Below are positions 10,476-37,863 of a stretch of 64,000 bases of DNA, piece after piece. The stretch lies in contig JADNRZ010000004.1 in the NCBI GenBank assembly GCA_015501605.1, forward strand, positions 1,798,001 through 1,862,000, written 5' to 3'. The translations under genes and the position numbers were made by a program. The notes under the pieces were generated by a model, which had not been told where the DNA came from, did no database searches, and saw only the letters and a program-made list of their open reading frames with translations. The stretch is from Panaeolus papilionaceus. Taxonomy: Eukaryota > Basidiomycota > Agaricomycetes > Agaricales. Numbering within the stretch: position 1 is the stretch's first letter; each line of letters begins with the position of its first letter.

Positions 10476-11178
10476 ATGGTCAAGTTACCCCCTATAGCTT
10501 ACAATGGTGATTCGCTTGGTCTTCACCTGTTAGAAGGTTGGTGCAGTTCGGTCACAAGGTTACTCAGATTCTCATTCATGCATCATAGTAAACTATTTGG
10601 GGCAGTCCCGACGGTCTCTCATTCCAATAATATTACCATAAGCGCAGCGCTTGGAGGGCTCGACCATCTTTTCAAAAGACAAACAAAGAGTTTCTGGGTA
10701 ATATCATGCCAATAATCGTATAGCTGGTTTCATATCCCAGTCCCGACGACTCCTCCACCAGGGTGTTACTGCAGATTTGATCACTCTAAACATTGTAGGC
10801 ATGTCATTTCTTGTTGATTTCCCGGAGCCCCATTCACAGGTTCTCCCAAGGTTTTCAGTTTTGGAGGGGCTGATGCCTTGGGAAACTGGGCCGCTACCAC
10901 CAGGAGTTGGTCGGCGACATACTCTTGGTAGTCCTGACGCGTTAAAGAATGGTTATTGTTATCCTCAACTTTTGTAAAGTTTGGCACTCGCAACTTCCCA
11001 GTTGGGTTTCGATTATTAATGATATGAGCACCTTGGTTTGTGATTTTGAACTTTAGTAGAATCGAATTGCTAGCGGACTCGGATTAGAAGAGTGTGACCC
11101 AAAATCATGTTCCCCAGCTCGCCGGTCGCTACCGCGGCAAACTCTATTGTAAGAAATTACTATTCCACGTTCACTCTA
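10476..11178 (+). pseudogene. GH10 xylanase relic, 5' half only
   Basis: Collinear with the first half of the GH10 genes at 15743 and 18923. It shows an ATGGTCAAG start, a stretch matching GGLDHLFKRQ, GGTGTTACTGCAGAT (GVTAD), TTTGGAGGGGCTGATGC (FGGADA), a [13 protein letters not shown] segment, and CGCTACCGCGGCAAACT (RYRGKL). Several expected exons are degenerate, including loss of the KSEFGQITP region. Homology ends abruptly around 11178, where COX5-derived sequence begins. The 3' half, with the catalytic nucleophile, is missing. It is not functional. Confidence 0.8.
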
Positions 11179-15742: not shown

Positions 15743-17705
15743 ATGGTTAGGTTCTTCGCTCTTGCCTCTTTGGTGGTGCTCGCCTGTCAACAGGTTGATG
15801 CGACTCGGCAACAAGGTCAGTTCTTCCCTATCAGCCGTGAAGTATGTTGAACCACTATAACGCGCAGCCTCGACGATTAATGATAACCCACATACGTCCG
15901 CACGGGCGGCACTCGGGGCTCTCGACCGTCTTTTCAAGCGACAAGCAAAGAAGTTTTGGGTAGTATTCCATTGAGAGAAACGCAGTTGTCGTACATCTTG
16001 AGCTTAGTGCTGACGATACATTCAGGGTGTTACCGCAGATTCGAATACTCTAAACATTGCAGGTGGGTTAGATTTCCTGATACATAAATCCTAAGTCTTG
16101 ACATAGATATCGACTAGCAAACGCTGCTATTATCAAATCTGAATTCGGCCAGATTACTCCTGTAAGTGTCGCAAGCCCTCCTCTCTTCAACACAGCACTT
16201 CTGAGCATCTGAATGCATGTATCAGGAAAATTCCATGAAGGTAAGAGTAACTGGATTCAAATACTTGTCCAAGCCAGCTGCCGACCATCAGTCACGGTCC
16301 CATGACCAAACTCCCGGATCTAGTGGGATGTCATTGAAAGTACGCCGCTGCCAGCATACTCTTCGATAGCAATTTTTGATGGCTCATCCACACTCACAGG
16401 CTCGCAAGGCAATTTCAAATTTGGAGGAGCTGATGCTTTCGTAAACTGGGCGGTTTCCAACGGGAAGCTGATCGGGGGTCATACTCTCAGTACGTGTGTT
16501 TACTGCTTACAGCCCTTGAAGCATTGTCGAAATCCTCAACCTTCGTCAAGTTTGGCACTCCCAACTTCCAAGCTGGGTTTCGAGTATCAACGACAGGAAC
16601 ACTCTGGTTAGTGATTTTGAACTTAATAGAATCAAATTACTGGTGGACTCCAATTAGACGAGTGTGATCCAAAATCATATTTCCCAGATCGCGGGTCGCT
16701 ACCGCGGCAAACTCGATTGTAAGAGATTTTCACTCCACATTTACTCTTCTCATAATTGGGCCTGTAGCTGTAAGTGCTGAAGAGACGCACTCACGGCCAG
16801 TGCTTGTATACTAAGACTGCTTTTCACAATCAATGGATTGTCTGCAAGTAAGTCTGAAGCAGAGCTTACTAGTACTGAACGCGATCCAGAAGCTCACAAT
16901 TCATAGCGAAATTATCAACGAAGATGGTTCGCTGAGGTCCAGTATTTTCAAGAATGTGCTTGGAGAGTCTTTTGTCACCATTGCTTTCACTGCGGCTCGT
17001 GCAGCAGACCCTACTGCACGGTACGTATTTTGTCCTTGCTTTACTCGTCGTTAATCTTAGCCCTCATTTTTTTAGGCTTTATATAAACGATTATAACATG
17101 GACTCTAACAATGCCAAGTACAGGGTATGCTTGCGCTCGTTGCTCGCATCAATGCTAGTCAGAGCTACATCGATGGCGTCGGTACCCAAATGCATCTAAA
17201 TGTAGGTGTTGCAAAAATTGCCCACGATGCGCGCTTAAATGACTTGACCCCTTACCTAGGCTGGAGGCTCTAGTGGTGCCCGTAGTGCCCTCAGTGCTCT
17301 TGCGAGCACCGGTATAGAAGTCGCCATCACGGAACTAGACATTTCCGGTTCCTCCGTTAACGATTACCTGACTGTCTTATATGCTTGCCTCGATACCCCA
17401 TCATGTGTCTCCATCACATCATGGTGTGTGAGCGACATTGTAGGTTTCCCTTCGCTCCAATGTAGTTATTTGTCCACTAAAATTGTGTCATGTAGAACTC
17501 GTGGCGTTCCGACTCTCGCCCGTGTTTGTTTGACAGCAATTACCAGCCAAAGCCCGCTTATACTGCGATCATAAGCGCTTTGAGTGCTCTGCCGGCCAAG
17601 ACCACTACCAGCGCTAACCCGACATCTACTTCAACAACCTCTGCGTCACTTATTATTGCCGCCACGACCCCGGGGCGTGCAATTGCCAACCCTCCTACTT
17701 TGTAA
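15743..17705 (+). pseudogene. GH10 endo-beta-1,4-xylanase copy A, decayed
   Basis: Starts MVRFFALASLVVLACQQVDA, a good secretion signal, and follows the 15-exon plan of the GH10 genes: [86 protein letters not shown] (nucleophile Glu) and a Ser/Thr-rich tail. Two lesions are visible against the other copies. The AG acceptor before the WIVCN exon is changed to CAATGG (about 16830). One base is missing after the NNAK codons (about 17120), which shifts the frame ahead of the nucleophile. Both acid/base and nucleophile codons survive. It is probably a recent pseudogene, unless RNA evidence shows rescue. Confidence 0.78.
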
Positions 17706-18922: not shown

Positions 18923-20861
18923 ATGGTTAAACTCAGAGACACTCTTATCCCCTTGATGGCGCTTGCCTCCCACTGTTGGGAGGCCCATGCTATCCTACCA
19001 CAATGTTCGCCCTTGTTTTTAATCAGTGAATCAGAATTGAAGTCTTGCTAACTTATTTTGCAGCGGCCCCGACTACTGCAAATAATATGTCCATCAGCGC
19101 TTCCTTTGGAGAGATTGACCGTCTTTTCAAGAGACAGGCAAAGAGGTTCTGGGTAATATGACGAATATCACTTCGCTAGTCCTTAAACCATATCTGATAC
19201 CTTTCTCAGGGTAACTCTGCAGATTATAACACGCTTAACATTGCTGGTACGACATTCAACCATACACCAACCACAGGCTTTGACACAAGATTTAATTAGT
19301 GAATGCTGCTATTCTAAAGTCGGAATTCGGCCAAGTAACCCCTGTGAGTGCAGCAAGCCTCTCCCTTACGTAAAATTATCGGGGAGACTTATGCAGCATT
19401 CAGGCAAACTCCATGAAGGTAAGGAAGTCAGGCCTTCCCACCAAAGTCGACCCAATTAGCGATAGTTTAATGACCACATTTTTAATTCCAGTGGGATGGT
19501 ACTGAGCGTAAGTAGTATCATTACGTGATTACAATTTTTGGAATGTGACCCACATTCACAGCCTCTCGAGGAAATTTCTACTTTGGAGGGGCCGATTACC
19601 TGGTAAACTGGGCTGCTTCCAACGGAAAGCTCGTGCGCGGGTCTTACCTCGGTAGGTGCTTGTAACTGAATATTGTTGGTATAATGCACATGCTCAAATT
19701 CCGTCTAAGTCTGGCACGCGCAACTTCCCAGTTGGGTTTCGAGTATCAATGATAAGACCACCCTGGTTTGTGATTCCAAGTCTGGATGAAGTCAAATAGT
19801 AGCTGACGGGCTCTAATTTAGACCAGCGTGATCCAAAATCACATCTCTCAGGTGGCGGGTCACTACCGTGGTAAACTTGATGGTAAGAAATACTGGCCCT
19901 GTCTATATTTTCTCTCAGACTGATCATTCAATGCATAGCCGTAAGTACTTAGAGTCACGCTCGACGTGTTGATACTCAGACCATCGTCCGCATTCCAGTG
20001 GATTGTTTGCAAGTATGTCCAAAACGAATGATTTTGGAAGACATCCCAAAGCTCATGATACGTAGCGAAGTCCTCAAAGAAGATGGCTCCGGGCTGAGGT
20101 CTAGCGTCTTCAGCAACGTACTTGGGGAGTCGTTCATCACGATCGCCTTCTCTGCGGCTCGTGAAGCGGATCCCACTGCAAGGTGCGTGCCTATTCACTG
20201 ATTCATCCGAATTCGACCTACAGTTTATCGCCATCTATCGTTTTAGGCTCTACATCAACGATTATAACCTCGATTCCAATAATACAAAGACGCAAGGTAT
20301 GGTCAAGCTTGTGAATCGAATCAACGCCAGTCAGAGATACATCGATGGTATTGGAACTCAAATGCATCTTGGTGTTAGTATTCGAATTTTTGAGCCCGCA
20401 TAACCTTTGATTTATTTGTCTTTCTAGGTGGGAGCCGCGAGCGGCACCAGTAGCGCCCTCCGTGTTCTTGCAAGCACAGGTCTTGAAGTCGCCATTACGG
20501 AATTGGACATAGCAACTTCCTCTGATCAAGTCGACGACTACCTCACAGTCATGTACGCTTGCCTCGGTACCCCATCCTGTGTTTCTATCACCTCGTCGGA
20601 TGTTACCGATGCAGTAGGTGTCTCATGTTCCGGATTTGCCTTCTCGACTAATATATCTTTTACACGTAGATCTCGTGGCGCACGATTGTTAGCCCCTGCT
20701 TGTTTGACCGCAATTACAGGCCCAAGCCTGCTTACAGTGCGCTAGTAAGCGCTTTGAACGCATTGCCCGCCAAGACCACTGATGGTGCCAAACCAACGCC
20801 TACTGCGAAAGCCAAAGTTTCAACCCTCCCCGAAATTACCAGTCCTCCCACTTTGCATTAG
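18923..20861 (+). CDS. Endo-beta-1,4-xylanase, GH10, copy B
   Basis: Fifteen exons were rebuilt: 18923-19004, 19064-19152, 19210-19246, 19300-19343, 19404-19418, 19492-19507, 19562-19651, 19710-19765, 19822-19882, 19939-19940, 19999-20012, 20066-20182, 20247-20373, 20428-20613 and 20670-20861. They total 1128 nt, or 375 residues. A signal peptide ([16 protein letters not shown]...) and a short pro-region ending FKRQ precede the TIM barrel. The barrel shows [33 protein letters not shown] with acid/base Glu, [19 protein letters not shown] and VAITELDI with nucleophile Glu. The tail is Thr/Pro/Lys-rich, with no cellulose-binding module. Secreted xylan hydrolysis is the family role. No lesion is seen. 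The Asp usually following Trp in W-D-V-x-N-E is Ile here. Confidence 0.88.
19939..19940 (+). other. Inferred 2-nt microexon (CC) in GH10 copy B
   Basis: Context is ATAG|CC|GTAAGT. The preceding exon ends GAT G and the next starts TGG, so inclusion gives D-A-W in frame with NEV. Direct splicing across would shift the frame. The same arrangement occurs in copy D (CC) and in copies A and C (CT, giving D-S-W). Confidence 0.7.
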
Positions 20862-21731: not shown

Positions 21732-22627
21732 TATCAAGAGGTTGGTGCATTTCAGCAACAGGGTCAGTCTTTCCCCTCAGCGATGGGTTCTGTTAAACTA
21801 CTATAACGCGCAACCTCGACGATTACAGATAATCCACATCTGTCCTCACGAGCGGCACTCGGAGGACTCGACCACCTTTTTAAGCGGCAAGCAAAGAAGT
21901 TTTGGGTAATATTGCATCAAGAGAAATGCAGTTGTCGTACACCTGAGTGCCGACGATACATTCAGGGTGTTACCGCGGATTCAAATACTCTAAACATTGC
22001 AGGTGGGATATATTTCCTGATACATAAATCCCAAGTCTTGACACAGAAATCGATTAGCAAATTCTGCTATCATTAAATCTGCGTTCGGCGAGCTTACTCC
22101 TGTGAGTGTCGCAAGCCTCTCTTCACACAACACTTCTGAGCACCTGGATGCATGTATCAGGAAAATTCCATGAAGGTAAGCATCACAGGATTCAACTTCA
22201 TCTCTGAGCCAGCTGCCCACACATCAGTCCTATGATCAAACTCCCAAATCTAGTGGGATGTCACTGAAAGTACGCCGCTGCCACCCTCTCCGATCATAAT
22301 TTCTTGTGGCTCATCCACACTCACAGGCTCTCGAGGGAATTTCAATTTTGGAAGAGCTGATGCTCTAGTAAACTGGGCGGTTTCCAACGGGAAGCTGGTC
22401 GGGGGTCATACTCTCAGTATGTGCTCACTGCTTACAGCGTTAGAGGTATCGTCGAAATCCTCAACCTTTGTCAAGTTTGGCACTCGCAACTTCCTAGTTG
22501 GGTTTCGAGTATCAATGATCGGAACACCCTGGTGTGTGTGATTTTGAACTTCGATAGAATTGAGTTACTGACGGACCCGATTAGACGAGTGTGATCCAGA
22601 ATCATATTTCCCAGATCGCTGGTCGCT
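21732..22627 (+). pseudogene. GH10 xylanase copy C, 5' part, cut by a transposon
   Basis: Closely matches copy A from the end of its first exon (CAACAGGGTCAG) through ALGGLDHLFKRQAKKFWG, GVTADSNTLNIA, the ENSMK microexon, [10 protein letters not shown] and HISQIAGR. It ends at GGTCGCT (22627), where the transposon starts. The start codon and signal peptide are missing because the duplication breakpoint lies at about 21730. The copy was therefore probably already broken before the insertion. Its 3' part resumes at 34184. Confidence 0.9.
22622..22627 (+). repeat. Target-site duplication, left (GTCGCT)
   Basis: GTCGCT abuts the left inverted repeat and recurs at 34184-34189. Removing the element and one copy restores GGTCGCTACCGCGG, the sequence seen in GH10 copies A and B (RYRG codons). 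Confidence 0.92.
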
Positions 22628-22742
22628 TATGGTGCGCCATCTGCACATTTATTATTAGTCGGAAACATTTCACGCAATTTTAGAACTTAAACTAAACTTT
22701 TGTACTTACCTTTTAAATGCAAACATCTTTTAGGCGCTTTTA
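22628..22742 (+). repeat. Left terminal inverted repeat
   Basis: 115 bp beginning TATGGTGCGCCATCTGCACA. The reverse complement of 34070-34183 matches with about four substitutions and one single-base indel. Confidence 0.95.
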
Positions 22743-22895
22743 TTATATCCCAAACATCTATTGAGCGCTTGACGATTCTTTCAAACATTCCTCGAGCGCT
22801 TATGTTAGAGTAGCAAACATTTTACAAATTTGCCGCCTCTTCAAACATTTCCTGGGCGCTTACAAGGCGACAACAAACAAATTAGAGCGCTTAAG
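22738..22895 (+). repeat. Left subterminal repeats CAAACA-N10-GCGCTT
   Basis: At least five units within about 160 bp (starting in the inner edge of the repeat) share CAAACATnnnnnnnnGCGCTTA with fixed internal spacing. Inverted counterparts lie near the right end. Arrays like this commonly bind transposase; that role is inferred here. Confidence 0.75.
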
Positions 22896-23506
22896 GTGAA
22901 AATTCAGAATTAATAGTGAACTTTTAAATAGCGCCCAAAGTAATATAACTATAATAAAACTCATTTTTCTTTCTAAATGTTTGTTGAATATCGGGGGATT
23001 GGTCGGAGTTTCAATGTCACGGCATAAGAAGCGGAGCTTGAAATGGCCATCAACAATAATCGGCGGAGCTCAAAATATAAAAAAAAAGGCCCGCCCTAAA
23101 CAATCGTGCACTGATGGTGCTCACACGATGGTATCATGATTCCCTTTCTCCCACCACAACTCCGTCGTTTCAGTACATATATACCACCCCGCTCGCGTCT
23201 AATTAGCATCGTAAATAGTTAAATTTAGATTAAGAAATACATACTGAAAAAGAATTAAGGCGCAAGATATAATATGAGGAAGACACAGAGCTCAAGACAA
23301 AATATACAACCAGATGCGACTCGAATGCCGCGCCCTCAGAAACGGAAATGGCAGGCAATGGTAAGGATCGATGGATAAGGGCATATTCACGAATGCCTGG
23401 CTCAATCAATCCTTCCTTGCCAGCATGAAGAAACCGACTTATCTGCGGTCATAAACATGGCATTCGCCAATCAGGAAGGTGATTACAGCCTGTTAACTCA
23501 GTCTAT
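22896..23506. other. Non-coding left arm of the transposon
   Basis: Promoter region of the Spt5-like gene. Contains TACATATATACC at about 23176. No gene is seen. Confidence 0.5.
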
Positions 23507-26047
23507 ATGACCTGTAGTGACAAAAATCAAATACCAGATGACTCGCATCTTAGCGAAGAAGACAACATCGCGATGGACAAGGACAAGGGACAGGAAGTTG
23601 ATGTGGAAGGAGATGACGATGAGGAAGGGGAGGAAGATGACGACAATGAGGAAGGGGAGGAAGATGATGATGATGAGGAAGGAGATGAAGATGGAGAAGG
23701 GGAGGAAGATGGCGACGAGGAAGGAGACGAGGAAGACGACAATGAGGAAGGGGATGAAGTAAACGAGAGCTTGAAGGGCAAGGGAGACAAGGGGAAGCGT
23801 AGGGCCAACCCCTTCATAGACGACGAGGCTGCTGGAGGGGACACATCAGATGATGAAGACGACGACAACGACGTGCAGGCTACAACATTTATCGATGATG
23901 ATCAAGGCGATGATTTATCTCAAAGCCACCACAGTAAGTGGTTTTATGTGTACACATACATGCTCCTGGTCCTGATACACCATACTTAGAACTTCACGCG
24001 CAATTTCTTCAAACCCAAGATAACGAGGCTCGTCTGTACTGCTGGGACAAGCTGCTTGACAGAGCATATGGCCGGATGAGGGGTGAACGTTGGTCTTGTG
24101 CTGTGGGTGATGACGATGATGACGACGAGTACATTATATCCCCCACAGACTTGCTCTGGGTTGTACCCTGCAAGGTATGTTTTGCAGCCTCTTATTTTAA
24201 TTTTATTGCTAACGAATTCGTAACATTGGGTATTACAGGTGGGCCATGAACAGAAAGCCATCTTCACCATTTTCAAACGTGCCACCCACCCATCATCGCG
24301 CAACTCTGTAGGCAAGACAGCTATATTCAATCCTTCGCACCCAGGGCGGATATATGTCGAGGCTCCAAGCGAGAGACTTGCTAGAGCGACTGTAAAAGGG
24401 ATATCTGCTCTATCAACTTCACGTTTACGGGCGGTGCCACACGAGGAACGTCGGCGTTGTGTTTCTCATTCTCCCAGACGCATCCCGCTTTGGGTCCGTA
24501 TCCACGATTCCAGGCCCGAATGGAAAGCTGTAAATGGGAGCATTGGAATTGTCGTGCCCGATCTCAATAACAACGACCAAGAACAGATTTGGAACGTTGT
24601 TGTTGCACATAAAGACCCAATGGAAGCTTCCGCACCCTGGTCATGGCAGTCAGTTAACTTCGGTGATATTCGTTTCACAATCGACCTAGACAATCTCCCA
24701 ACAGTCAAAGACATCCAAAGATTTTCAGGATGCAACCTCGTCAACGAATACACTCTCAACGTGCTCTTTGAGCGCATTTATCGCACCAATCTACGACCAG
24801 GGGCCCGTGTCTGTGTCACCACCGGAGAGTTTGTGGGGTTGATTGGAGAAGTCGTCGCATCATTGGGTACAGCGGCCAAAGTCAGATTTGAAGACGGTGC
24901 AATAGAGAGTGTGCCACTCCGCGACCTACGTCGAAACTTCGTAATTGGCGACCAAGCAGTCATTTCCACCCTACCATGGAGAGGAATCACGGGCTGGGTG
25001 ATCAACATTGAAGCGAAGCACATCACCATCTGGTCAGACTCACTACAGAACGAGGTACGGTCACTCCAACTTTCTTTTAATCGCACACTCATAATCTATA
25101 CGAACAGTATCGGGTAGCCGCTATTGAAGCGGAGTTCTTCACGCCATCCTTCCGACAAACCCCCTCCCTACCTGCAAGAATTAAACGTCAAAACGTCACT
25201 GAGTTCAACATATATGAGCGCTTCAAAAGCAGAATGGTATACATTACGGGTCGCCACCCTCTCAAGGGCCAACGAGGACGTATCAAAGACACACATCCCG
25301 ACGGACGATTCTGGATTCAAATGGAGTCAATGTTGCATAGAAATGAACCATATATCTTCAAGCACACCGATATATCTTTAATGTAAGTCATCTCCCAACC
25401 CTCTAACCTACTGGACTCGATATCTGATTGTTCAACGCAGCGAAGATATAACAGAGAATTTGCTTGGGGTACATCAAAATCGTTCTAGCATCGCATATAC
25501 GACCCCGATCAAGGCACCATTCACGTCCCCAGCCTCCCAAACGACCTCCAAAAGCACAACAGTTATCAATGACGGTGGGCCTAGCGACTCACGAAGTCCA
25601 TGCTCCCAGATGAGAGACGTCCCTGTCATTGATAGTTCAATCACCTTCCCTGAAACGGATCCGATAGAATATTCTTCAAATCATGATCCTTACTGGCTTG
25701 TTGAGGCTTGCTTCTCGCACAGGATCAAGCTCGCTCACGTCCAAGATCCCAATCATATTGTCCAGCTTCTTGGGAGGGGCTCGGCCTCTGGGTTGGTTCA
25801 GGTGCGCGATCGTATGGTGGTGCGCGAGATCGCATCACACACTTTAACTGCGTTACCGCCAAGTCGTAAAGATGATCTTGTGGTCGTCCTTTCTGGTGAA
25901 CATGTAGGGAGAATGTATAAAGTAGTCGAAGTTCTTGGGTCTGTTTCACGTGTCAAGAGGTCGGGACGAGTGCTGCGCAAAAACGAGGTCGACCCTACAT
26001 TGTCTAATGACATGTTGGTGCAGGCCTTTGGACCCTTCAAAAAGTAG
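23507..26047 (+). CDS. Spt5-like protein (acidic N terminus, NGN domain, multiple KOW motifs), transposon cargo
   Basis: Five exons, 23507-23933, 23990-24174, 24239-25054, 25108-25382 and 25441-26047, total 2310 nt, or 769 residues. Residues about 30-85 are an Asp/Glu/Gly run, as in Spt5. There follow an NGN-like domain (LLWVVPCKVGHEQKA, then GRIYVEAPSERLARATVKG) and KOW-type segments around LRPGARVCVTTGEFVGLIGE, VIGDQAVISTL...GITGWV, YITGRHPLKGQRGRI and DDLVVVLSGEHVGRMYKV. Cellular Spt5 pairs with Spt4 and clamps RNA polymerase II during elongation. It is usually over 1000 residues with a long repetitive C-terminal tail, which is absent here. Its place beside the integrase inside the inverted repeats makes it element cargo. 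A role in transcribing the element or recruiting it to active genes is speculation. Confidence 0.82.
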
Positions 26048-26293
26048 TAGACACGACACATTTTTATTTAGTTATATCAGGTTGTTATCATGTCTGAACG
26101 CTAGTAGACTTTTTTTTATTATTTTAATTTATAGTTATGAGGCGTGATGTTGTATTTTTAATTTAAGACCACATGTAAACATCTATTGAAAAACTAACAA
26201 CTTGAACAGCACGGAAACTGCGCAACGCTCTATCGACTATCTATATGAATCTACCAAAAGCCTACATACCGACTACGTAAGTACTAAATCTAT

Positions 26294-27202
26294 TTAAAGG
26301 AACGCTGATTTAATCTCATTTTCTGCATCCTTATGTAGGTCATCCTCGATGTCAAACTCAGTAATACGAAGACGCAGGTCCATCAGGGCCTGCCTTCGGC
26401 AAGCGTTAGGATTGGTGGAATTTTCAACCATGACCGAGTGGCATTTCTTCAAGGGAAGGGGGTGGTCAGGGTGGAAAACCTGCTCCAGGATGTGCATACG
26501 CCAGTCGCTTCTCCAACGCAGAGTGCACGACACATGATTCGTGCACCCCTCGCTCTGAGGCATACTATCAGGGACAGCTGCGCATCGACGCCGGACCTCG
26601 TCCAACCGGATTCGTAACTTCATGATAGGTTCGTAAATGGCTGACTGCTCCAACTTCCAATCTAACATCCGTACTTTGACAGCCAGGCCGATCAGCTCTC
26701 CAACCATATTCCACCTCCGATACGCCGTCGCCAACCTCAGCATAAATAATGGGTCCCCTAAAAGCTTCCAGAGCCCAGCAAAGCAAAACTTCTCAGCCTG
26801 CTCCATATCCCATTGGTCGGCGAGGTGAAGCATACTAAGCAGATCCCCCTCAGTGTAACTACGACCTTTTGGTAGGCTTAGTGAGGGCGTGAGTGTTCAT
26901 ATCCCCTTGAAGAGAATGTTCGACGACTTACTCAGCGCCATATCGAATCCACAGTGCCAACGGTGCGAAGTCGCGACGCTTGATATTGTGCAGGACAACT
27001 GGGTTGCTGGTCGTTCCTTCCTGTGTGGATCCGATATCGGGCGAGTCGAAAAACATGTTTCGGAAGACGTTTGAAAATTTGGACATCTCGCTGACTGACA
27101 GCCAAAACCGAGTGCCTTCAACCTTTAGCTAATGTGAGTCGTGATAATGAGCAAAATAAAATGTGCACTGACCATAATAACAATGCCAGCACTTGTCGAC
27201 AT
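26294..27202 (-). CDS. BTB/POZ-like protein 1, transposon cargo
   Basis: Exons 27202-27173, 27122-26932 and 26876-26294 total 804 nt, or 267 residues. The product begins MSTSAGIVIM and continues VEGTRFWLSVSEMSKFSNVF, then NPVVLHNIKRRDFAPLALWI and MLHLADQWDMEQAEKFCFAG. This follows the pattern of basidiomycete BTB proteins: a buried-strand start, an 'S.VF..MF' segment, a 'P..L..I....F..L' segment and a 'L.LAD.W....' helix. BTB domains mediate dimerisation and Cul3 adaptor functions. No DNA-binding domain is visible. The gene runs opposite to the Spt5-like gene and is a distant paralogue of its upstream neighbour. Confidence 0.68.
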
Positions 27203-27427
27203 TGTCAGGTTGCTGGTCGCTGAAGAGGGAGCAGTGATCTGGCCGACATTTGGCATAACTCTGAAGGTGTTGATGGAGCGGATGAAGTTTCGATGTGGGA
27301 CGCAGGAATTTATGAGGGCGTATTCAAGCTCTGAGAGGTGTAACGAAAGTGTGAACCAATTTATATTTGAGTAATGCTGATATCAATCCATACAGGGACA
27401 TACAGGATATACGTCAATCTATTATCA

Positions 27428-28687
27428 TCATTGTCCACCCCGCTGAATAATCATCGCTATTTTCTCCTTCAATTTTCGTAACACGTAGTCCTCCTTTCCC
27501 CATCTCGTTGCCCAGTCTGGATGATTCACAAGATCCACCCTCATATGCTCCCTGCATCCCCGATTTATCAAGCCCTGTTCGGCCATCGCCTCAACAAATG
27601 AATCACGAGCATCTACTGCAGGTTGCTGACCCTCCATCAGCGGCTTGGTGATATGGTCCCGCCAGAGGTTAAAACACTCATCCACGCACACAGTGTGCAC
27701 ATGTGTTTTATCATTAATCTTTGGCATAGTGGGAAAATGTGCCGCGATCGCTGCCCTCTGCACCATGATGGCGTCGCGTGCAAAGGTCACTGCATGATAA
27801 ACCGCATAGGTCAAGCGCTTGAGATCAGCTGGAGATTCATTAATGGGGGTGAAAACGAGGGTCCTCAGCATATGAATAGTCAATAGGCTCTCATCCTTGA
27901 ACTTTACAGCAGCATACAGCCGGAACGCCGGAGTCTGGCCAGGCAACCCCAGAAGACGATAAAATTGCTCCTCAATCGTGGTAAGCTCCCATCTCTGTGC
28001 CAGTTTCACAAACTGCATAATCTCGTCTTTGTTGTAGGGTTTCCCTTTGAACGGAGACGCACCCCAGTCCCTGGCTCTGAGTGTTAGTGTTCGTGTTTAA
28101 ATGACAATTTTAGAGATGTACTAACCTGTGGACAAGTAGAACACCAACGAAAGCGTTCATGTGCTCCTTACTAACGCCCTCAACTAGGAGCGGACATTCC
28201 TGGGAGACGCCTGGCTTGCAAACCGCCTGTACGGTGGACCCCGATTGAGCCGATAGCGCCTCAAGATGTTCCTTGGAGTTTTGGTATAACGTCGCCATGA
28301 AGGCTGATTGTGAGACAAAGCGGCTGATCTCTAGCGAAAAAACGACATCCTCTACCTGATTATTTCCGGTATGAGCATATTTATCGAATCATCAATGATA
28401 CTGACCTGAAACCAGGCATCCAATGGCATTTGGGAGAGTAAATCATCCCAGACGGTGGTCCCTTCATCTGGCGTCACATCAAGTGTGTGTGTATCGTTGT
28501 CGATGGCCATTGCAACAGCATCATCTGGACTCGGTGGATCAGGTTCTGTTGGGTTGTCGACAGGGGACTTGTTGACATGTTCGTTGTTGTCGTCCTCGAC
28601 GAGCATGCTGTGCACCACAGGTGGAGATGAAGATGGGGATGAACTTGGAGAATGTAAGATATCAAATAGACTATTGGACAACGCCAT
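27428..28687 (-). CDS. BTB/POZ-like protein 2, transposon cargo
   Basis: Exons 28687-28406, 28355-28126 and 28076-27428 total 1161 nt, or 386 residues. An acidic, Ser/Pro-rich leader of about 85 residues precedes a BTB-like region: AWFQVEDVVFSLEISRFVSQ, AFMATLYQNSKEH, CPLLVEGVSKEHMNAFVGVL, IMQFVKLAQRWELTTIEEQF. The C-terminal half is helical and charged. Motif order parallels protein 1, so the two are probably an old duplication within the element. It is divergent from the integrase gene, with only about 220 bp between the start codons. A role in regulating transposition or contacting host factors is a guess. Confidence 0.68.
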
Positions 28688-28911
28688 ACTATTACGCTTT
28701 TTTTAATTACTGATAAGTGGTTTATAAATGGTCCTGTGATACCGAGATTCCTCCATAGTATATCCTATCCATTCTGCTAGTCAGTAATCAGTATATAGTT
28801 CATTAATGATTTATTCCGCAAAACCGGTGTTCTGTCTTTCTGAGGTATGTCAAGAAAATGCATTTAAGCACCGCTATGACTGACAACGATCTGATATAGC
28901 CTCTGCTCAGA

Positions 28912-30974
28912 ATGGCCTTCCCCGCTCTTCCTAAACGCCACCCAGCTTGGCCATCTCCTGTTATCATTGCAGCAGGTCAGATTTACAATGCCTACTGTAG
29001 TACGCACCGCCTAATCGAGTCCGGGAACCACAATCATCATCGAATTATCATGCACAAAAATATCATGTACAGCCAAGTCAAACCCCTTATCGCATCAATA
29101 TCAGCCCAAGAGCCCGATTTAGCTGACTGGGTCTCAGCTGTATGTGATATCGTGTACGATCTGCACACGCAACTGGAGCAGGCTGAAGCTACTCCGCAGT
29201 GAGTACAAATATTTTCAATAGCTGAGCGCCATTTACTCACCTGCACCCTCGAATCTAAATTCCAGATCTGGGACATCATCTTTCCCTGTCCAACCATTTG
29301 TTCTCGTTTACACTGGACGTCCTGGAAGGCCAGCCAAGCGTATTAACCATTCTGCGCTTGAATGGGCATCAAGGAGCAATCTGGAGCTTTCCCAGATTGC
29401 GAAACTCTTTGGAGTCCATCGGAACCACCTTCGTACTCAGATGAAAGCCGCAGGCCTCCCAACATCACGATTCACCGACCTAAATGACGACGACCTCAAT
29501 AATGTTGTACATGAAGCACTTTCCGCTCGACCGGATACAGGAATCGCCTATCTGATGGGCCATCTACGGTCTCATCACAAACTACGCATCCAGCGTGCAA
29601 GGATCCGAGCTGCTGTGCGGAATGTAGACGCCGTAGGAGCAACACTCAGGCAACAAGCTACATCCAAGAAGCCCCGAGGACACTATCACGTCTCAAGGCC
29701 GCACGCTTTATGGCATATTGACGGCCACCACAAACTCATTAAATGGGGTTTTGTCATTCATGGTATTATTGACGGTTACTCTCGAAAGGTCCGTTAACAA
29801 AAATTTTATGCGCATTTAATGTTGCATGTATTTTTTTTCAGATAATCGGGCTTAGGGCCAGCACCTCTAATTCGGCAGACACGGTGTTAAATATGTTTAT
29901 CGACTCTATTTGGGAACATGGCATTCCCTCTCGGGTGAGGGGAGATCGAGGAGGGGAGAACCGCGATGTCTCAATTGCCATGATTAGATTTCGTGGACGG
30001 AATCGTGGCAGCTTTTTATGGGGACCCAGTGTCCACAACACGCCGATCGAGCGGCTATGGGTTGAGCTAGGGCGTCGGTTCTGTCGAGCATGGAGGGTTT
30101 TCTTCCTTCGTTTGAGTCGTCTCCATCATCTTGAGAAAGAAAACCCTGTTCATCGTTGGCTGCTTGATTACCTGTTCCTTGACATGATCAACGAGGACTG
30201 CAGGAGATTCGTAGAGGAATGGAATGCGCATCCAATGCGTAATAGAGGCAACAAGTGTCCAAACGTAATTTATTTCTCCCCTAATTTGTCTAACGATTAA
30301 CACTAAATGTAATGAATTAGGATCTTGAAGTCGAAGGGATGATCAAGTACGGCGTTTACGACAACTCTACAGGGTCGTTCACCTTCGGCGATGAGTGCGA
30401 AGGCCTGTCACCAGACGAGATACTCCAATTTTACCAATATCAGAAAGAGAGCACAGGGAGCGGAGATGAGGCACAATCGGATAACGAAGAGCCGGAAAAC
30501 GATGTCACCAACGAAGCCGACGCCAACTCAGACTACAACCCCTCGGATGAAGAAGATACATGGATGGACAGCAACGAAGATCATGACCACCACACGAGCA
30601 CAACAGACAACAATACCGAGATCCAAGACAGTGACGATGAAGCAGGATACGACGTCAATCCTGCTGACGATGTCGACCCTAACATTCATCATGAGGCCGT
30701 TGACGTCCCACGAGGTAATTGTCCCTTCGACAACGCAGCACTGGCCGTTTTTAAGACGTGTATTGAGCGGGTTTACCAAGAAGGAGAGATTCCGCGTGGG
30801 TATAACATTCTTGCAGAAGAATGGGAGGACGGTTATTATTCCGAAACTGAACAACTAGCGATTGGACGATCGCAGAAAATTAAAACTGTGCATTTGCCCA
30901 ACCATATCTGGCTAGCTAGGGCTCGACTATGGGTGCAGGCGTTATGTTTATTGCAGACATCTGAATTGATTTAG
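28912..30974 (+). CDS. DD34E integrase/transposase of the large transposon
   Basis: Exons 28912-29198, 29266-29788, 29842-30264 and 30321-30974 total 1887 nt, or 628 residues. A GRPGRPAKR basic patch is followed by a helix-turn-helix (LSQIAKLFGVHRNHLRTQM). The rve-like catalytic core has Asp in LWHIDGHHKLIKWG, Asp in RVRGDRGGENRDV and Glu in NTPIERLWVELGRRF, with 34 residues between the second Asp and the Glu. A C-terminal region of about 220 residues is strongly acidic (NSDYNPSDEEDTW and others). All three catalytic residues are present. The enzyme would cut and join the TATGG... termini and leave the 6-bp duplication. Similar integrase-core proteins are widespread but poorly named in Agaricomycete genomes. 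Confidence 0.88.
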
Positions 30975-31109
30975 ATACATAAATTATATTTATTCATGTG
31001 TATATATAGTTTCAGAACGCAGGTAGTTCTGGTTTCCTTAGTACCGTACCCCCTTAGGTGCCCATCCACTCATTTACACTCCTTACTACCACTATTTCTA
31101 CCTACTACG

Positions 31110-32719
31110 ATGACTGACCGCCACAAGCGCAAAGCCGCTGAAGAATCATCTATTGAGCTCATACCTCCGCCCTCCACCCAACCACCCTCCAAGAAATTCC
31201 GAGCAAATGCTACTGTTCCAAATTTCCCTTCCTCCCTTCGTCCTATATTTGCACCTGGTAGCCTTACTGGCTCTAGCTCCAAGCCTGCTAAACCTGCAAA
31301 GAACACCAAAGCGCCAACACGGGTGCTGCATCCACTTCCGCCAAAGCGAAAGGTAAAGCGAAAGCTGAACCTCAAGCCAGTAGCCAAGAGGACCCTGACA
31401 GCAACAGCAGTGACAACGACCACACCGACCACTGCGGCGATGCAGGCAACGGAAACGGGAACCCCAGCTTCACACAGGCGGCGTCCGAGTTCAAGTCCTT
31501 CCTCAAGTCCCAGATCAAGGCAGACCGTGGTGCTGCGCGGAAAGAGACGAACAACCAAGGTGGAAAAGGTCCCTCTGCAAGAGCTCGTGCTGATCCCTCC
31601 TCCACTTCTACGACTTCGACTAAGAGCATAGCTAGCGCGGGACTCATACCTCGAGCACGAGCGCTCAAAGCTTCCGAGTTTAGGGTCAAGGTTGTGATGA
31701 TTTTGCCGTACGGCGTTACACCAGTACGTTTTCCTACTTCCTTTGTCTTTTAATTAATTGTTTTTCTCATACGCTGTCTTTCAGGCCCCTCTTGGTCAAA
31801 GGAACACGTACAACTCCCCTTTCAACATTCGCAGTCTCGCCTTTTGGAGCAGGGACCTTGCTTATCTTGGTTCCAAGGGGTTTTCTGTTCGTGCGTCGGA
31901 CTCTGATGGTTTCATTTTTGATGACAACTGGTCAGAGGATCGCGTCTTTCGCGAGATCAGCTTACTTCTCCCCAATGCTGCGAAAACACTCAACGAGACT
32001 CACGATCCTGTAAAGAACGGCCCTCGAAAATGGTTGCCATGCAGCAAAGTTGCTTACAGCGGTAAATTTGTTGTTTCGCCAGCGGACGGACCCTACACTG
32101 GCTCTGTGATGCGGAACATTGCTATCTCGGGCAACCAGCGTGGTGGAGATAATGAAGGCATCATTATTGGCAAGTAATTTTCATTTTTATTTTATGAGTT
32201 TCGCGTTAAATATTATCTTCTAGTCTCAACGACCAAGATTCGCATCTCTGATGATGATGATTTGGTTATCTCGGATGATGAGTCCTCCGTCCCTTCAGCA
32301 CAACCTTCCAGATCCACCGCAACATCCCACAAACCAGCAAAATCGAGATCATCTTCCGCTCAACATCATCGCTCGGCACCGCCTTCCTCTCGCCAACTTC
32401 GCCCAAGGATTCCAAAGAAGGTTGACGTTATCTCGAGTAAGCATCTTTACCTAGCTGCTTCACTTGCATGGATGCTCATATATATTCATAATCAGTTGCT
32501 GATGACGACTCAGACTTCGAGTCCTTCGGCTCTCCGGATTTGCAAGGCACTGAGCCGGCATTTAGTCGCGCTGGAAGTCCTACAGGTGATATCGATCTTG
32601 ATCAGTCTTTTTCTGGATTGGGTTTTGATGTTGAGTTCACTCATGACGATGTCTCCGCACCGCATGACTGTCAGCCAGAGCTTCCTGCCGAAGCTGACTA
32701 TTGCTGGTTGTCCTCTTAG
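31110..32719 (+). CDS. Unrecognised transposon protein with SIM-like acidic motifs
   Basis: Five exons, 31110-31257, 31302-31723, 31785-32169, 32224-32436 and 32496-32719, total 1392 nt, or 463 residues. The third intron needs a GC donor (GCAAGT). With the nearby GT donor the protein would end after about nine more codons. The N terminus is basic and low complexity (RHKRKAA, KKFRAN, AKAKGKAKAE). The middle domain (VKVVMILPYGVTP, NSPFNIRSLAFWSRDLAYLG, GPRKWLPCSKVAYSGKFVVS) looks globular. The C-terminal third is acidic, with DDDDLVISDDESS, which resembles a SUMO-interacting motif. I do not recognise the family. It lies within the inverted repeats downstream of the integrase in the same direction. 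DNA binding by the basic N terminus is possible. Confidence 0.65.
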
Positions 32720-34069
32720 GTGCCTTCCGCAGATTTTCGCCTTACTTTTTACTTCATCACATGCATTGATTTCTTCTAAGTCCACACTTACATACTCATA
32801 TCCCGTAGTTTATCCTTTGGTATAATCTGATAGAAACACTTATCTGTAGTACGGTCGTAATCATTTTCTAGCCCTCGCTTTTACTTTCCCCTTTGGGAGG
32901 CTTCTTCCCTGGATTCTCTCCATTTACTCACCATCCTTATCTCTCTTCCCTTATCGTCTCACTGTTATCTCACGTTATCTCTCTCCTCTCATCTTCTCAT
33001 CTTCCTTATCCCTCTCTCCTTGTCGTCACATCTCTCTCCTCGTTTCTCACCAACCCCTTACCCCTTTCTCTCTCTCTCTCGTCTTCTCACTGACCCATAT
33101 ACCTCTCGTTCCTCGACTTCTCATCAAACCTTATCCTTCTGACCACCCTTTACCACCTGCCCTACCCGCTCCCTCTCTATTGTTACATACACCTTCTTCA
33201 GCTCAGGCCTTACATTATAGTAGATTTAACTTGGTGCTTTTCTGTCAATAGATGATAGTTTTCGTTGTAAAATGGCTTCCGGTGTGATGAGTGTGACATG
33301 CCAAACAGGACCGTCGCTGCGCGCAGCACATTCTGAGGCCTTTAGCCACTGACGCCTGAACCTTGTCTTAGGATTAGTAAGCACTCGTGAATTGAGAAAC
33401 TGTTTTCACTTACAGCCAAGCTTCTGACCATGATCGTCACTTCCACGTTGTGATAAGGACACTTCAGAGGTGAGAAGGTGACATCACGGTCCTTGATGGT
33501 CCGTAGTCACGTGACCTCCTCATCTCACCTTCATCATTGACTCTAGGTCGAGGCACTTATCTCTAGAATAAAGTGTATCACCCAAATTAATATATATACC
33601 TAGATATACACACATGCAAAAAAGATAGAGCCCAAGTGCTCAAATTACCGAGATACAGCATCTATACATACTAAGCTTGATCAGAGACCATCCACGTGCT
33701 ATCAGAATCACGCAACTCTGCGAGCTGTGACAACGCCTCATACCTTCAAAGTCCGACATTTGTGCCGTGAATGCCGTTTTCAATCTCCGACGGCATCGTG
33801 CTTTTGTAGTCTTTCTTCGAACAAGTACAGAACCTTTGAAATATTGATATTTTATTCCTTACAATTCAAGGACGGAAATATGTTTGAGATGCTTGCACCC
33901 TGCTGTGTTAAGCGCTCAAACTGTTCTGCAAACTTGTATAGGCGCACAAGAAATGTGAAGAATATGGAAAGGTTCAGCAAAATGTTTGGAATTTCAATGT
34001 AAGCGCCCAAATATGTTTGGGTTCAAACTTAAATTTCGCAGTAGACGCGCAAAATGTTTGGAATAACGA
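32720..34069. other. Non-coding right arm of the transposon
   Basis: Contains a CT-rich tract (about 32925-33190), an imperfect inverted repeat (about 33468-33530, AGGTGAG/CTCACCT arms) and right subterminal repeats. The short open frame at 33727-34002 looks spurious. Confidence 0.6.
32925..33190 (+). repeat. Pyrimidine-rich (CT) tract
   Basis: About 265 bp dominated by CTC/TCT/CCTTAT units with very few purines on this strand. Simple low-complexity sequence inside the right arm of the transposon. Confidence 0.8.
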
Positions 34070-34085
34070 TAAAAGCGCCCAAAAG
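33905..34085 (-). repeat. Right subterminal repeats (inverted orientation)
   Basis: Units such as TAAGCGCCCAAATATGTTTG and AAAAGCGCCCAAAAGATGTT mirror the left-end CAAACAT...GCGCTTA units in inverse orientation, next to the right inverted repeat. Confidence 0.72.
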
Positions 34086-34183
34086 ATGTTTGCATTTAAC
34101 AGGTAAGTACAAAAGTTTAGTTAAGTTCTAAAATTGCGCGAAATGTTTCCGACTAATAATAAATGTGCAGATGGCGCACCATA
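34070..34183 (-). repeat. Right terminal inverted repeat
   Basis: 114 bp ending GGCGCACCATA. Reverse complement of the left repeat with a few differences. Confidence 0.95.
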
Positions 34184-35190
34184 GTCGCTACCGCGGCAAA
34201 CTCGATTGTAAGAGATTTCTACTCCACGTATACTCTTCTCATAATTGGGTCTGTAGCTGTAAGTGCTGAAGAGACGTACCTGGTACTTGTATACTAAGAC
34301 TGGCTTTTCACACCCAGTGGATTGTCTGCAAGTAAGTCTGAAGCAGAGGCGGCCCCTTACCGAACGCGATCCAGAAGCTCACAATGTATAGCGAAATTCT
34401 CAACGAAGATGGTTCGCTGAGGTCCAGTATTTTCAAGAATGTGCTTGGAGAGTCTTTTGTTACCATTGCTTTCACTGCGGCTCGTGCAGCAGACCCTACT
34501 ATTTCACGGTACGTATTTTGTCCTTGCTCTACTCGTCGTTCATCTTAACTCTCATTTTCAGGCTCTATATAAACGATTATAACATGGACTCTAACAATGC
34601 CAAGGTGCAGGGTATGCTTGCACTCGTTTCTCGCATCAATGCCAGTCAGAAGTACATCAATGGCATCGGAACTCAAATGCATCTAAATGTAGGTGTTGCA
34701 AGAATTGCTAACGAAGCGCTTAAATGACTTGACCCCTTACCCAGCCTGGAGGCTCTAGTGGTGCAGGCAGTGCCCTCAGTGCTCTTGCGAGCACCGGTTT
34801 AGAAGTTGCCATCACGGAACTAGATATTTCCGGTTCCTCCGCTAACGATTACCTTACTGTCTTGCATGCTTGCCTTGATACCCCATCATGTGTCTCCATC
34901 ACATCATGGTGTGTGAGCGACATTGTAGGTTTCCCTTCGCTCCAATGTAGTTATTTGTCCACTAAAATTGTGTCATGTAGAACTCGTGGCGTTCCGACTC
35001 TCGCCCGTGTTTGTTTGACAGCAATTACCAGCCAAAGCCCGCTTATACTGCGATCATAAGCGCTTTGAGTGCTCTGCCGGCCAAGACCACTACCAGCGCT
35101 AACCCGACATCTACTTCAACAACCTCTGCGTCACTTATTATTGCCGCCACGACCCCGGGGCGTGCAATTGCCAACCCTCCTACTTTGTAA
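34184..35190 (+). pseudogene. GH10 xylanase copy C, 3' part
   Basis: Resumes at GTCGCTACCGCGGC (RYRGKL) exactly where the 5' part stopped. It contains the CT microexon, an intact CCCAG|TGGATTGTCTGC (WIVC) junction, [51 protein letters not shown] and the Ser/Thr-rich tail. No lesion is seen in this half. The last ~345 bp are identical to copy A. It is separated from its 5' part by the 11.6-kb element. The left duplication copy is the end of the 5' fragment. Confidence 0.9.
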
Positions 35191-35928: not shown

Positions 35929-37863
35929 ATGGTTAAACTCAGAGACACTCTTATCCCCTTGATGGCACTTGCCTCTCACTGGTGTGGGGCCCATGCTATC
36001 TGGCCACAATGTTCGTCCTGGTTTTTAATCAGTGAACTTGAAGTGAAGTCTTGCTAACTTATCTTCCAGCGGCCCCGACTACTGCAGATAATATGTCCGT
36101 CAGCGCTTCCTTTGGAGAGATTGACCGTCTTTTCAAGAGACAGGCAAAGAGGTTCTGGGTAATATGATGAATATCACTTCGCTGGTCCTTAGACCATATC
36201 TGATACCTTTCTCAGGGTAACTCTGCAGATTATAACACGCTTAACATTGCTGGTACGACATTCAACCATACACCAACCACAGGCTTTGACACAAGATTTA
36301 ATTAGTGAATGCTGCTATTCTAAAGTCGGAATTCGGCCAAGTAACCCCTGTGAGTGCAGCAAGCCTCTCCCTTACGTAAAATTATCGGGGAGACTTATGC
36401 AGCATTCAGGCAAACTCCATGAAGGTAAGGAAGTCAGGCCTTCCCACCAAAGTCGACCCAATTAGCGATAGTTTAATGACCACATTTTTAATTCCAGTGG
36501 GATGGTACTGAGCGTAAGTAGTATCATTACGTGATTACAATTTTTGGAATGTGACCCACATTCACAGCCTCTCGAGGAAATTTCTACTTTGGAGGGGCCG
36601 ATTACCTGGTAAACTGGGCTGCTTCCAACGGAAAGCTCGTGCGCGGGTCTTACCTCGGTAGGTGCTTGTAACTGAATATTGTTGGTATAATGCACATGCT
36701 CAAATTCCGTCTAAGTCTGGCACTCGCAACTTCCCAGATGGGTTTCGAATATCAATGATACGACCACCCTGGTTTGTGATTCCAAGTCTGGATGAAGTCA
36801 AATAGTAGCTGACGGGCTCTAATTTAGACCAGCGTGATCCAAGATCACATCTCTCAGGTGGCGGGTCGCTACCGTGGTAAACTTGATGGTAAGAAATACT
36901 GGCCGTATCTACAATTTCTCTCCAACTGATCATTTGATGTATAGCCGTAAGTGCTTGAATCCCGCTCGACTTATTGACACTCAAACCATCGTCCGCATTC
37001 CAGTGGATTGTTTGCAAGTATGTGCAAATGAATCATTTTGGAAGACATCCCAAAGCTCATGTTACATAGTGAAGTCCTCAAAGAAGATGGCTCCGGGCTG
37101 AGGTCTAGCGTCTTCAGCAACGTACTTGGGGAGTCGTTCATCACGATCGCCTTCTCTGCGGCTCGTGCAGCAGATCCCACTGCAAGGCACGTGTCTGTTC
37201 ACTGATCCATCTGACTTCGACTTACGGTTTGTCGTCATCTATTGTTTAGGCTCTACATCAACGATTATAACCTCGATTCCAATAACACAAAGACGCGAGG
37301 TATGGTCAAGCTTGTAAATCGAATCAACGCCAGTCAGAGATACATCGATGGTATTGGAACTCAAATGCATCTTGGTGTTAGTATTCGAATTTTGAGTTCA
37401 CATAATCGTTGATTCATTTGTCTTTCTAGGCTGGAGGCGCGAGCGGCGCCAGTAGCGCCTTCAGTGTTCTTGCAAGCACAGGTCTTGAACTCGCCATTAC
37501 GGAGCTGGACATAGAAAATTCCGCTCATCAAGTCGACGACTATCTCACGGTCTTGTATGCTTGCCTCGATACCCCATCCTGTGTTTCTATCACCTCGTCG
37601 GATGTTAGCGATATCGTAGGTGTCTCATGTTCCGGATTTGCCTTCTCGACTAATATATCTTTTACACGTAGGCCTCGTGGCGCTCGGCTGTTACCCCATG
37701 CTTGTTTAGCGTCAATTACCAACCCAAGCCTGCTTACAGTGCGCTAGTAAGCGCTTTGAACGCATTGCCCGCCAAGACCACTGATGGCGCTAAACCAACG
37801 CCTACTGCGAAAGCCAATTTTTCAACCCTCCCCGAAATTACCACTCCTCCCAGTTTGCATTAG
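35929..37863 (+). CDS. Endo-beta-1,4-xylanase, GH10, copy D
   Basis: Near-twin of copy B with the same exon plan, including the CC microexon and the ANSMK and WDGTE microexons. Starts [20 protein letters not shown] (signal peptide). It keeps [27 protein letters not shown] (acid/base Glu), [21 protein letters not shown] and a nucleophile ITELDI. One weak point: the donor after DPTAR reads GCACGT instead of the GTGCGT of copy B, so this intron needs a GC-AG splice. If it fails, the frame is lost before the nucleophile. About 530 bp in the middle are identical to copy B, introns included. Probably a functional secreted xylanase. Confidence 0.82.

Follow-up and report, generated by a model that had tools for sequence, protein, structure and literature searches.

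In the accessible parts of the published descriptions, IS3EU transposons have TA..TA termini and usually a 6-bp target-site duplication (TSD), and they encode a DDE enzyme whose first D lies 100-300 residues from the N-terminus and which has no HHCC motif (PMC10045372). Fungal IS3EU elements are described with ends TAYGG..CCRTA, terminal inverted repeats (TIRs) over 30 bp and a 6-bp TSD; those of rust fungi carry several cargo genes, including alpha-kinase and TET/JBP genes, and their TET is thought to counter silencing (PMC12730594). Two mushroom genome papers, in the portions available, mention IS3EU only as amounts (PMC12411881, PMC8955403). Here we analyzed a 64,000-nucleotide stretch of the mushroom Panaeolus papilionaceus (assembly GCA_015501605.1, contig JADNRZ010000004.1, positions 1,798,001 to 1,862,000), hereafter the window, which contains an 11,556-bp element inserted in a GH10 gene. 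The element is very likely of the IS3EU type, because its 6-bp TSD, TATGG..CCATA ends, TIRs over 30 bp and DDE integrase without an HHCC motif fit the published feature descriptions, on which this placement is based. Taken as a whole, the locus is likely best explained as an IS3EU-type transposon that moves as a stable module of five genes.

Ends and insertion site

The element, its ends and the interrupted host gene are as follows.

22628..34183, plus strand: whole element, very likely an IS3EU-type DNA transposon, 11,556 bp (TIRs, TSD, empty paralogous site, other copies)
22622..22627, no strand: left TSD GTCGCT, read in the flank
34184..34189, no strand: right TSD GTCGCT, read in the flank
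22628..22757, plus strand: left TIR, about 130 bp, starting TATGGTGCGCC
34054..34183, minus strand: right TIR, about 130 bp
22254..22621, plus strand: 5' part of the host GH10 gene, limits approximate (Pfam Glyco_hydro_10, 4.3e-6)
34190..35059, plus strand: 3' part of the host GH10 gene, limits approximate (Pfam Glyco_hydro_10, 2.2e-8 and 2.9e-9)
16298..17103, plus strand: empty paralogous site near the element, matching the joined flanks end to end

An initial annotation made from the sequence alone had fixed both ends to the base, at 22628 and 34183, and these positions were upheld; the repeats are about 130 bp long, not about 115 bp as first given. Without gaps, the TIRs match over 63 nt at 98% and 54 nt at 96% identity, and a gapped alignment spans 131 columns at 94%. 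The element begins with TATGG and ends with CCATA, and the reported duplication GTCGCT is present on either side of it. Pfam GH10 matches in both flanks agree with the claimed insertion into a GH10 gene. The empty paralogous site was also recovered: the joined flanks (800 bases with one GTCGCT) aligned over their full length with 16298-17103 of the window at 87.7% identity, the element being absent there, and the exact string GGTCGCTACCGCGG had two further occurrences within the window.

Four stretches resembling the GH10 gene were seen in the window (10828-11177, 16298-17103, 19550-20177, and 36556-37181), and Pfam matched GH10 in an additional piece at 20428-20742 (2.9e-7). The stretches around the insertion form a local GH10 cluster.

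Next to the termini, the motif CAAACAT-N7-GCGCTT is repeated.

22720..22861, plus strand: subterminal array of the motif (starts at 22720, 22751, 22782, and 22842)
34073..34092, minus strand: inverted copy of the motif at the right end

A search tolerating two mismatches returned five matches in the window, every one exact and all inside the element's ends; shuffled sequences gave a mean of 1.5 matches, and 2 of 100 shuffles reached five. The four left-end motifs are spaced 31, 31 and 60 bp apart, and a single inverted motif lies at the right. The motif was also found in the end regions of other copies (29 of 59 fetched loci, many of which had been selected as copies of these ends). These repeats are a putative array of integrase-binding sites.

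Gene content

Five genes were modeled within the element.

23507..26047, plus strand: gene 1, Spt5-like elongation factor (gene model with 5 exons, 769 amino acids)
26294..27256, minus strand: gene 2, BTB/POZ-like protein, name tentative (3 exons, 287 amino acids; BTB match at E 0.0098, below the Pfam cut-off)
27428..28687, minus strand: gene 3, distant paralogue of gene 2 (3 exons, 386 amino acids; similarity to gene 2 at E 1e-7)
28912..30974, plus strand: gene 4, DD34E integrase/transposase (4 exons, 628 amino acids; Pfam PF24764 rva_4)
31110..32719, plus strand: gene 5, integrase-accompanying protein (GC-AG intron and last exon inferred)

The gene 1 protein has an acidic N-terminus, an NGN domain (residues 198-275) and KOW motifs. 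Its Spt5-NGN (6e-8) and KOW (4.1e-5) matches were both above the Pfam cut-off, and an Spt5 in the PDB matched with an E value of 1.2e-22; no C-terminal repeat was seen in this protein. A Pfam search with gene 3 gave no match. Two exons of gene 4 matched PF24764 rva_4 at 3.5e-14 and 3.7e-39. The D-D-E residues noted earlier are retained as D248, D305 and E340, spaced 56 and 34 residues apart, and inspection of the translation by eye found no CxxC in integrase residues 1-247. Gene 5 possibly carries a ubiquitin-like (beta-grasp) domain. In the window copy, a frameshift interrupts exon 1 of this gene, whereas the exon is open in the copies C8, C34b, C45, and C23 (named after their contigs); the cause may be a genuine lesion or an indel in the assembly. 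Thus only four of the five genes are open after splicing, where all five had been reported open, and the description of the element as intact was too strong because of this frameshift.

Conservation of the five-gene module

The genome (50.9 Mb) was searched with one exon per gene, and modules were counted by script within fixed distance limits that were set wide. The Spt5-like gene was allowed up to 25 kb, a range that C24 makes use of, and gene 5 up to 16.5 kb, as C34b requires; for gene 2, a limit of 12 kb was applied at C43 alone. The integrase exon gave 18 matches at a minimum of 17 loci, two of the matches falling in one locus. All five genes occurred in the same order and orientation (Spt5-like, BTB-like, BTB-like, integrase, gene 5) at 11 of these 17 integrase loci, and C18, where the BTB pair lies slightly past the distance limit, would make a twelfth full set. 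Counted singly, genes in the right place and orientation numbered 13/17 for the Spt5-like gene, 16/17 for gene 2, 15/17 for gene 3, and 17/17 for gene 5. An Spt5 match was lacking at four loci, namely C13 and, on C45, the divergent loci at 1835, 1843, and 1860 kb; contig C13 extends beyond the expected Spt5 position, yet no match was found there.

Purifying selection acts on all five genes. Ratios of nonsynonymous to synonymous substitution rates (dN/dS), calculated pairwise between the window copy and those at C8, C45, and C23, ranged from 0.12 to 0.38: 0.20-0.23 for gene 1 (exons 2-5), 0.26-0.28 for gene 2, 0.16-0.19 for gene 3, 0.12-0.17 for the integrase, and 0.31-0.38 for gene 5 (exons 2-4). 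The gene 2 model projected on C45 and C23 contained one stop, at an exon junction.

At C67:2280954-2282282, a distant pair of BTB-like genes lies side by side, with no integrase match nearby. It represents either host relatives or a domesticated remnant.

Genomic copies and recent movement

Matches to the left repeat were found at ≥39 places in the genome and to the right repeat at ≥37; these counts are lower bounds, and the left and right ends cross-match. The fetched large copies were collinear with the window element. The C8 copy (11,242 bp) is mostly about 81% identical to it, and C34b (C34:1661390-1685900) resembles the C8 copy. The copies at C45:2383606-2394425 and C23:2467589-2478396 are about 74% identical to the window element over most of their length and 99.67% identical to each other over 10.8 kb, and those at C31 and C43 are diverged or rearranged. 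Four contigs terminate within copies that are 99.4-99.7% like the window element over the parts present, as left parts (C64, C10) or right parts (C50, C18). Because the bases beyond their ends pair (GCTCAC for C64/C50 and GTCCAT for C10/C18, with one extra base at each right end), these are probably two further elements split by assembly. Such near-identical copies imply recent movement, and judging from copies more than 99% alike, present activity is plausible.

The initial annotation had proposed a search for copies sharing the termini, and such copies were found, with TATGG..CCATA at the window copy and at the other large copies whose ends were located. For nine large copies with both ends on one contig, leaving aside the loci at C13, C18:55-67 kb, C24, and C45:1835-1890 kb, an exact 6-bp duplication was read in six (window, C8, C34b, C23, C43, and C11). 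C56 shared 7 bp at its flanks, and C45 and C31 had no TSD; the right end of the C31 copy abuts another copy. A search for the ends of the C14 copy did not locate them.

The two flanks of C45:2383606-2394425 mirror each other exactly as inverted repeats over at least 500 bp and show no match at a distance of 2.5-4.5 kb, reflecting either a rearrangement or an assembly artefact. In C34b, an insert of ~13.3 kb (C34:1669.4-1682.7 kb) interrupts the last exon of the integrase; it has short inverted ends (TAGAGGCTAG, by eye) and appears to be a nested mobile element.

Short derivatives of ~610-675 bp with the element's ends were seen at C71:346375-347049 and C6:357011-357637, and paired TIR matches pointed to more at C67, C45:1310733, C39, C9, C1, and C40. 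Three were read at their flanks: C71 had a 6-bp duplication, C6 shared 8 bp, and C34:2536586, which is rearranged, had none. These short derivatives are probably miniature inverted-repeat transposable elements.

Variation and genomic distribution of Spt5-like genes

In the C45 and C23 copies, the first 52 codons of gene 1 exon 3, which encode most of the NGN domain, are deleted in frame. The Pfam NGN search of the genome found nothing at these two element loci, and a direct search recovered only a 14-residue NGN remnant. In other Spt5 proteins, the NGN domain is the part that binds Spt4 and the polymerase. Since the two copies are 99.67% identical, they moved or were duplicated recently without a full NGN domain, and an NGN-dependent role is therefore non-essential unless other copies complement it.

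The NGN search identified 22 genomic places, of which 11 lie in window-type elements and one, at C2, is a separate Spt5 that scores better and has C-terminal repeats. At C20, a divergent rva_4 integrase (474669-475223) and an Spt5-like gene (482566-482787) share a strand and are separated by ~7.3 kb; they may belong to a distant IS3EU lineage that carries the same cargo. Neither an rva_4 integrase nor a Plavaka transposase was found within 25 kb of the Spt5-like genes at C26, C17, C33, and C45:2418 kb.

At four places (C4, C14:68 kb, C14:537 kb, and C45:1903 kb), an Spt5-like gene lies 3' of a Plavaka transposase on the same strand, the transposase match at C4 being 1.4e-83. These units were seen at positions 1033-6349 of L046 (C4:1642000-1651900) and at C14:63-73 kb, C14:532-541 kb, and C45:1898-1908 kb, and a partial copy lies at C10:995 kb. 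Homology to this unit breaks off at a single point, L046:9114-9115, in six other places, and at C4 and C14 the right end could be read as TGATG, the end given for PlavakaB in the accessible part of PMC12730594. That the Spt5-like gene lies inside a Plavaka element, mapped at its right end only, is likely and not proved. In a 15-row tree, the Spt5 proteins of IS3EU and of Plavaka fell into two groups, each supported at 100/100, and the C2 protein lay between these. Separate capture of Spt5 by the two kinds of element is plausible and not shown, because long branches meet in this tree, C2 and C20 among them.

Relatives in other fungi

Of 140 integrase homologues, 120 were listed. The best of these were mostly from Agaricomycetes, and animals and other organisms were also represented. 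A tree of 39 integrase cores, drawn from the listed homologues and copies of the P. papilionaceus genome, placed the Panaeolus sequences in a supported group among the fungal ones. Behind the integrase, toward the C-terminus, a gene-5-like domain was detected in 14 of the 120, namely in every one of the 14 homologues longer than 840 amino acids. They came from Panaeolus (four, one of them P. papilionaceus), Agrocybe, Psilocybe, Leucocoprinus, Grifola, Lanmaoa (three), Marasmius, Coprinellus, and Favolaschia. Four of them seeded the gene 5 profile after a pairwise match, two were found in the first round, and the remainder after iteration. These long proteins are either fusions or merged gene models. 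The gene 5 protein search found eight proteins, from P. papilionaceus only.

The gene 1 protein search found at least five proteins, three from P. papilionaceus and two from Panaeolus cyanescens. In P. cyanescens, the integrase CVT24_008496 and the Spt5-like protein CVT24_008497 have consecutive numbers, both on 10,626-bp contigs, and the two genes appear to be adjacent. The element may account for 'SPT5' annotations, such as two in this species.

Proposed mechanism and alternative explanations

DDE enzymes cut at the termini of their element and join the ends to target DNA. By analogy, the integrase would cut at the TATGG..CCATA ends and join them to target DNA 6 bp apart, and it may bind the CAAACAT-N7-GCGCTT motifs near the ends. 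Gene 5, found behind the integrase in annotations from many fungi, is proposed as a co-factor of transposition, and the BTB-like pair might act on host proteins or chromatin. The Spt5-like protein could bind RNA polymerase II and promote transcription of the element despite host silencing. This anti-silencing step is a guess and we regard it as doubtful, having lowered its standing slightly on account of the NGN loss in C45/C23. A broader idea is that IS3EU and Plavaka each acquired Spt5 in mushrooms, making at least two captures, and that it serves them as a weapon against transcriptional silencing, a transcription-elongation counterpart of transposon-borne TET/JBP dioxygenases. This is tentative, and we lean against it. 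If the Spt5-like protein does aid transcription of the element, transposons would be using an appropriated core factor to counter silencing during elongation. The elements also supply naturally occurring forms of Spt5 whose effect on RNA polymerase II is testable: they lack the C-terminal repeat, and those of one subfamily also lack most of the NGN domain.

Several observations weigh against an IS3EU-type transposon with a stable five-gene module. The recently mobile C45/C23 pair lacks most of the NGN domain, Spt5 is missing from the matches at four integrase loci, the window copy has a disrupted gene 5, a clean 6-bp duplication is not found at every copy, and the IS3EU assignment is based on described features. 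The first two would be expected if the Spt5-like and BTB-like genes were passive passengers, captured from the host and contributing nothing to the life cycle of the element. The shared gene order at 11 of 17 loci, the low dN/dS, and the presence of the Spt5-like gene in the sister species P. cyanescens argue against passengers, and we consider this explanation unlikely.

The conserved reading frames and the BTB-like pair without a nearby integrase match on C67 might instead indicate that the genes serve the host as domesticated factors, with the transposon merely their vehicle. This is very improbable given the near-identical mobile copies and the existence at C2 of a distinct Spt5 that has C-terminal repeats and a better score.

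Comparison with known transposons

The chance that the element belongs to a new superfamily apart from IS3EU is slim: an assignment by described features and a gene set different from that of the TET-bearing IS3EU of rusts leave room for it, but the element agrees with IS3EU in its termini, in the lengths of its TSD and TIRs, and in having a DDE enzyme that lacks HHCC. A Maverick/Polinton or virus-derived origin, despite the large size, the integrase, and the 6-bp duplication, has almost nothing to recommend it, as the five genes had no Pfam match to a polymerase, capsid, packaging ATPase or protease, and Mavericks, whose hallmark genes are a protein-primed DNA polymerase, capsid, and ATPase, had already been judged a poor fit in the initial annotation.

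Two other groups were considered and rejected. Ginger1 and Ginger2 are described with a 4- or 5-bp TSD and, in Ginger1, an HHCC motif (PMC10045372, accessible part); the element has a 6-bp TSD and no CxxC in the N-terminal part of its integrase. For Zisupton (KDZ), an 8-bp TSD is given (PMC12730594, accessible part), and the element has a 6-bp TSD and a transposase of the rva_4 rather than the KDZ type.

No report joining Spt5 with IS3EU or Plavaka was found in the open-licence papers searched, which is no proof of novelty. Two of these papers name more than one of IS3EU, Plavaka and Spt5, and Spt5 is mentioned in neither. A paper about how Spt5 and other factors evolved contains no word starting with 'transpos' in its main text (PMC13289920).

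The element resembles IS3EU/GingerRoot in its 6-bp TSD, TATGG..CCATA ends, TIRs of ~130 bp at 94% identity, and DDE core with D248 as first D and no HHCC, and differs in its five-gene module with Spt5-like and BTB-like genes, which are absent from the accessible descriptions (PMC10045372). With Plavaka elements of the same genome it shares an Spt5-like gene behind the transposase, whereas those have an EnSpm-like transposase, the right end TGATG, and Spt5-like proteins in a separate tree group. The TET-bearing IS3EU of rusts are similar in their ends, TIRs over 30 bp, 6-bp TSD, and several cargo genes, but the alpha-kinase and TET/JBP genes reported there in the available text (PMC12730594) have no Pfam match among the five genes of the element. 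The initial annotation had suggested an IS3EU-like or a new cargo-bearing family; the first part stands on the TSD, ends, TIRs, and integrase, and the second does not, as cargo-bearing IS3EU have been published from rusts. The element represents a new cargo variant because its set of an Spt5-like gene, two BTB-like genes, and gene 5 was not found in the open-licence papers searched. What is new is this conserved cargo, carried by a kind of transposon that is already known.

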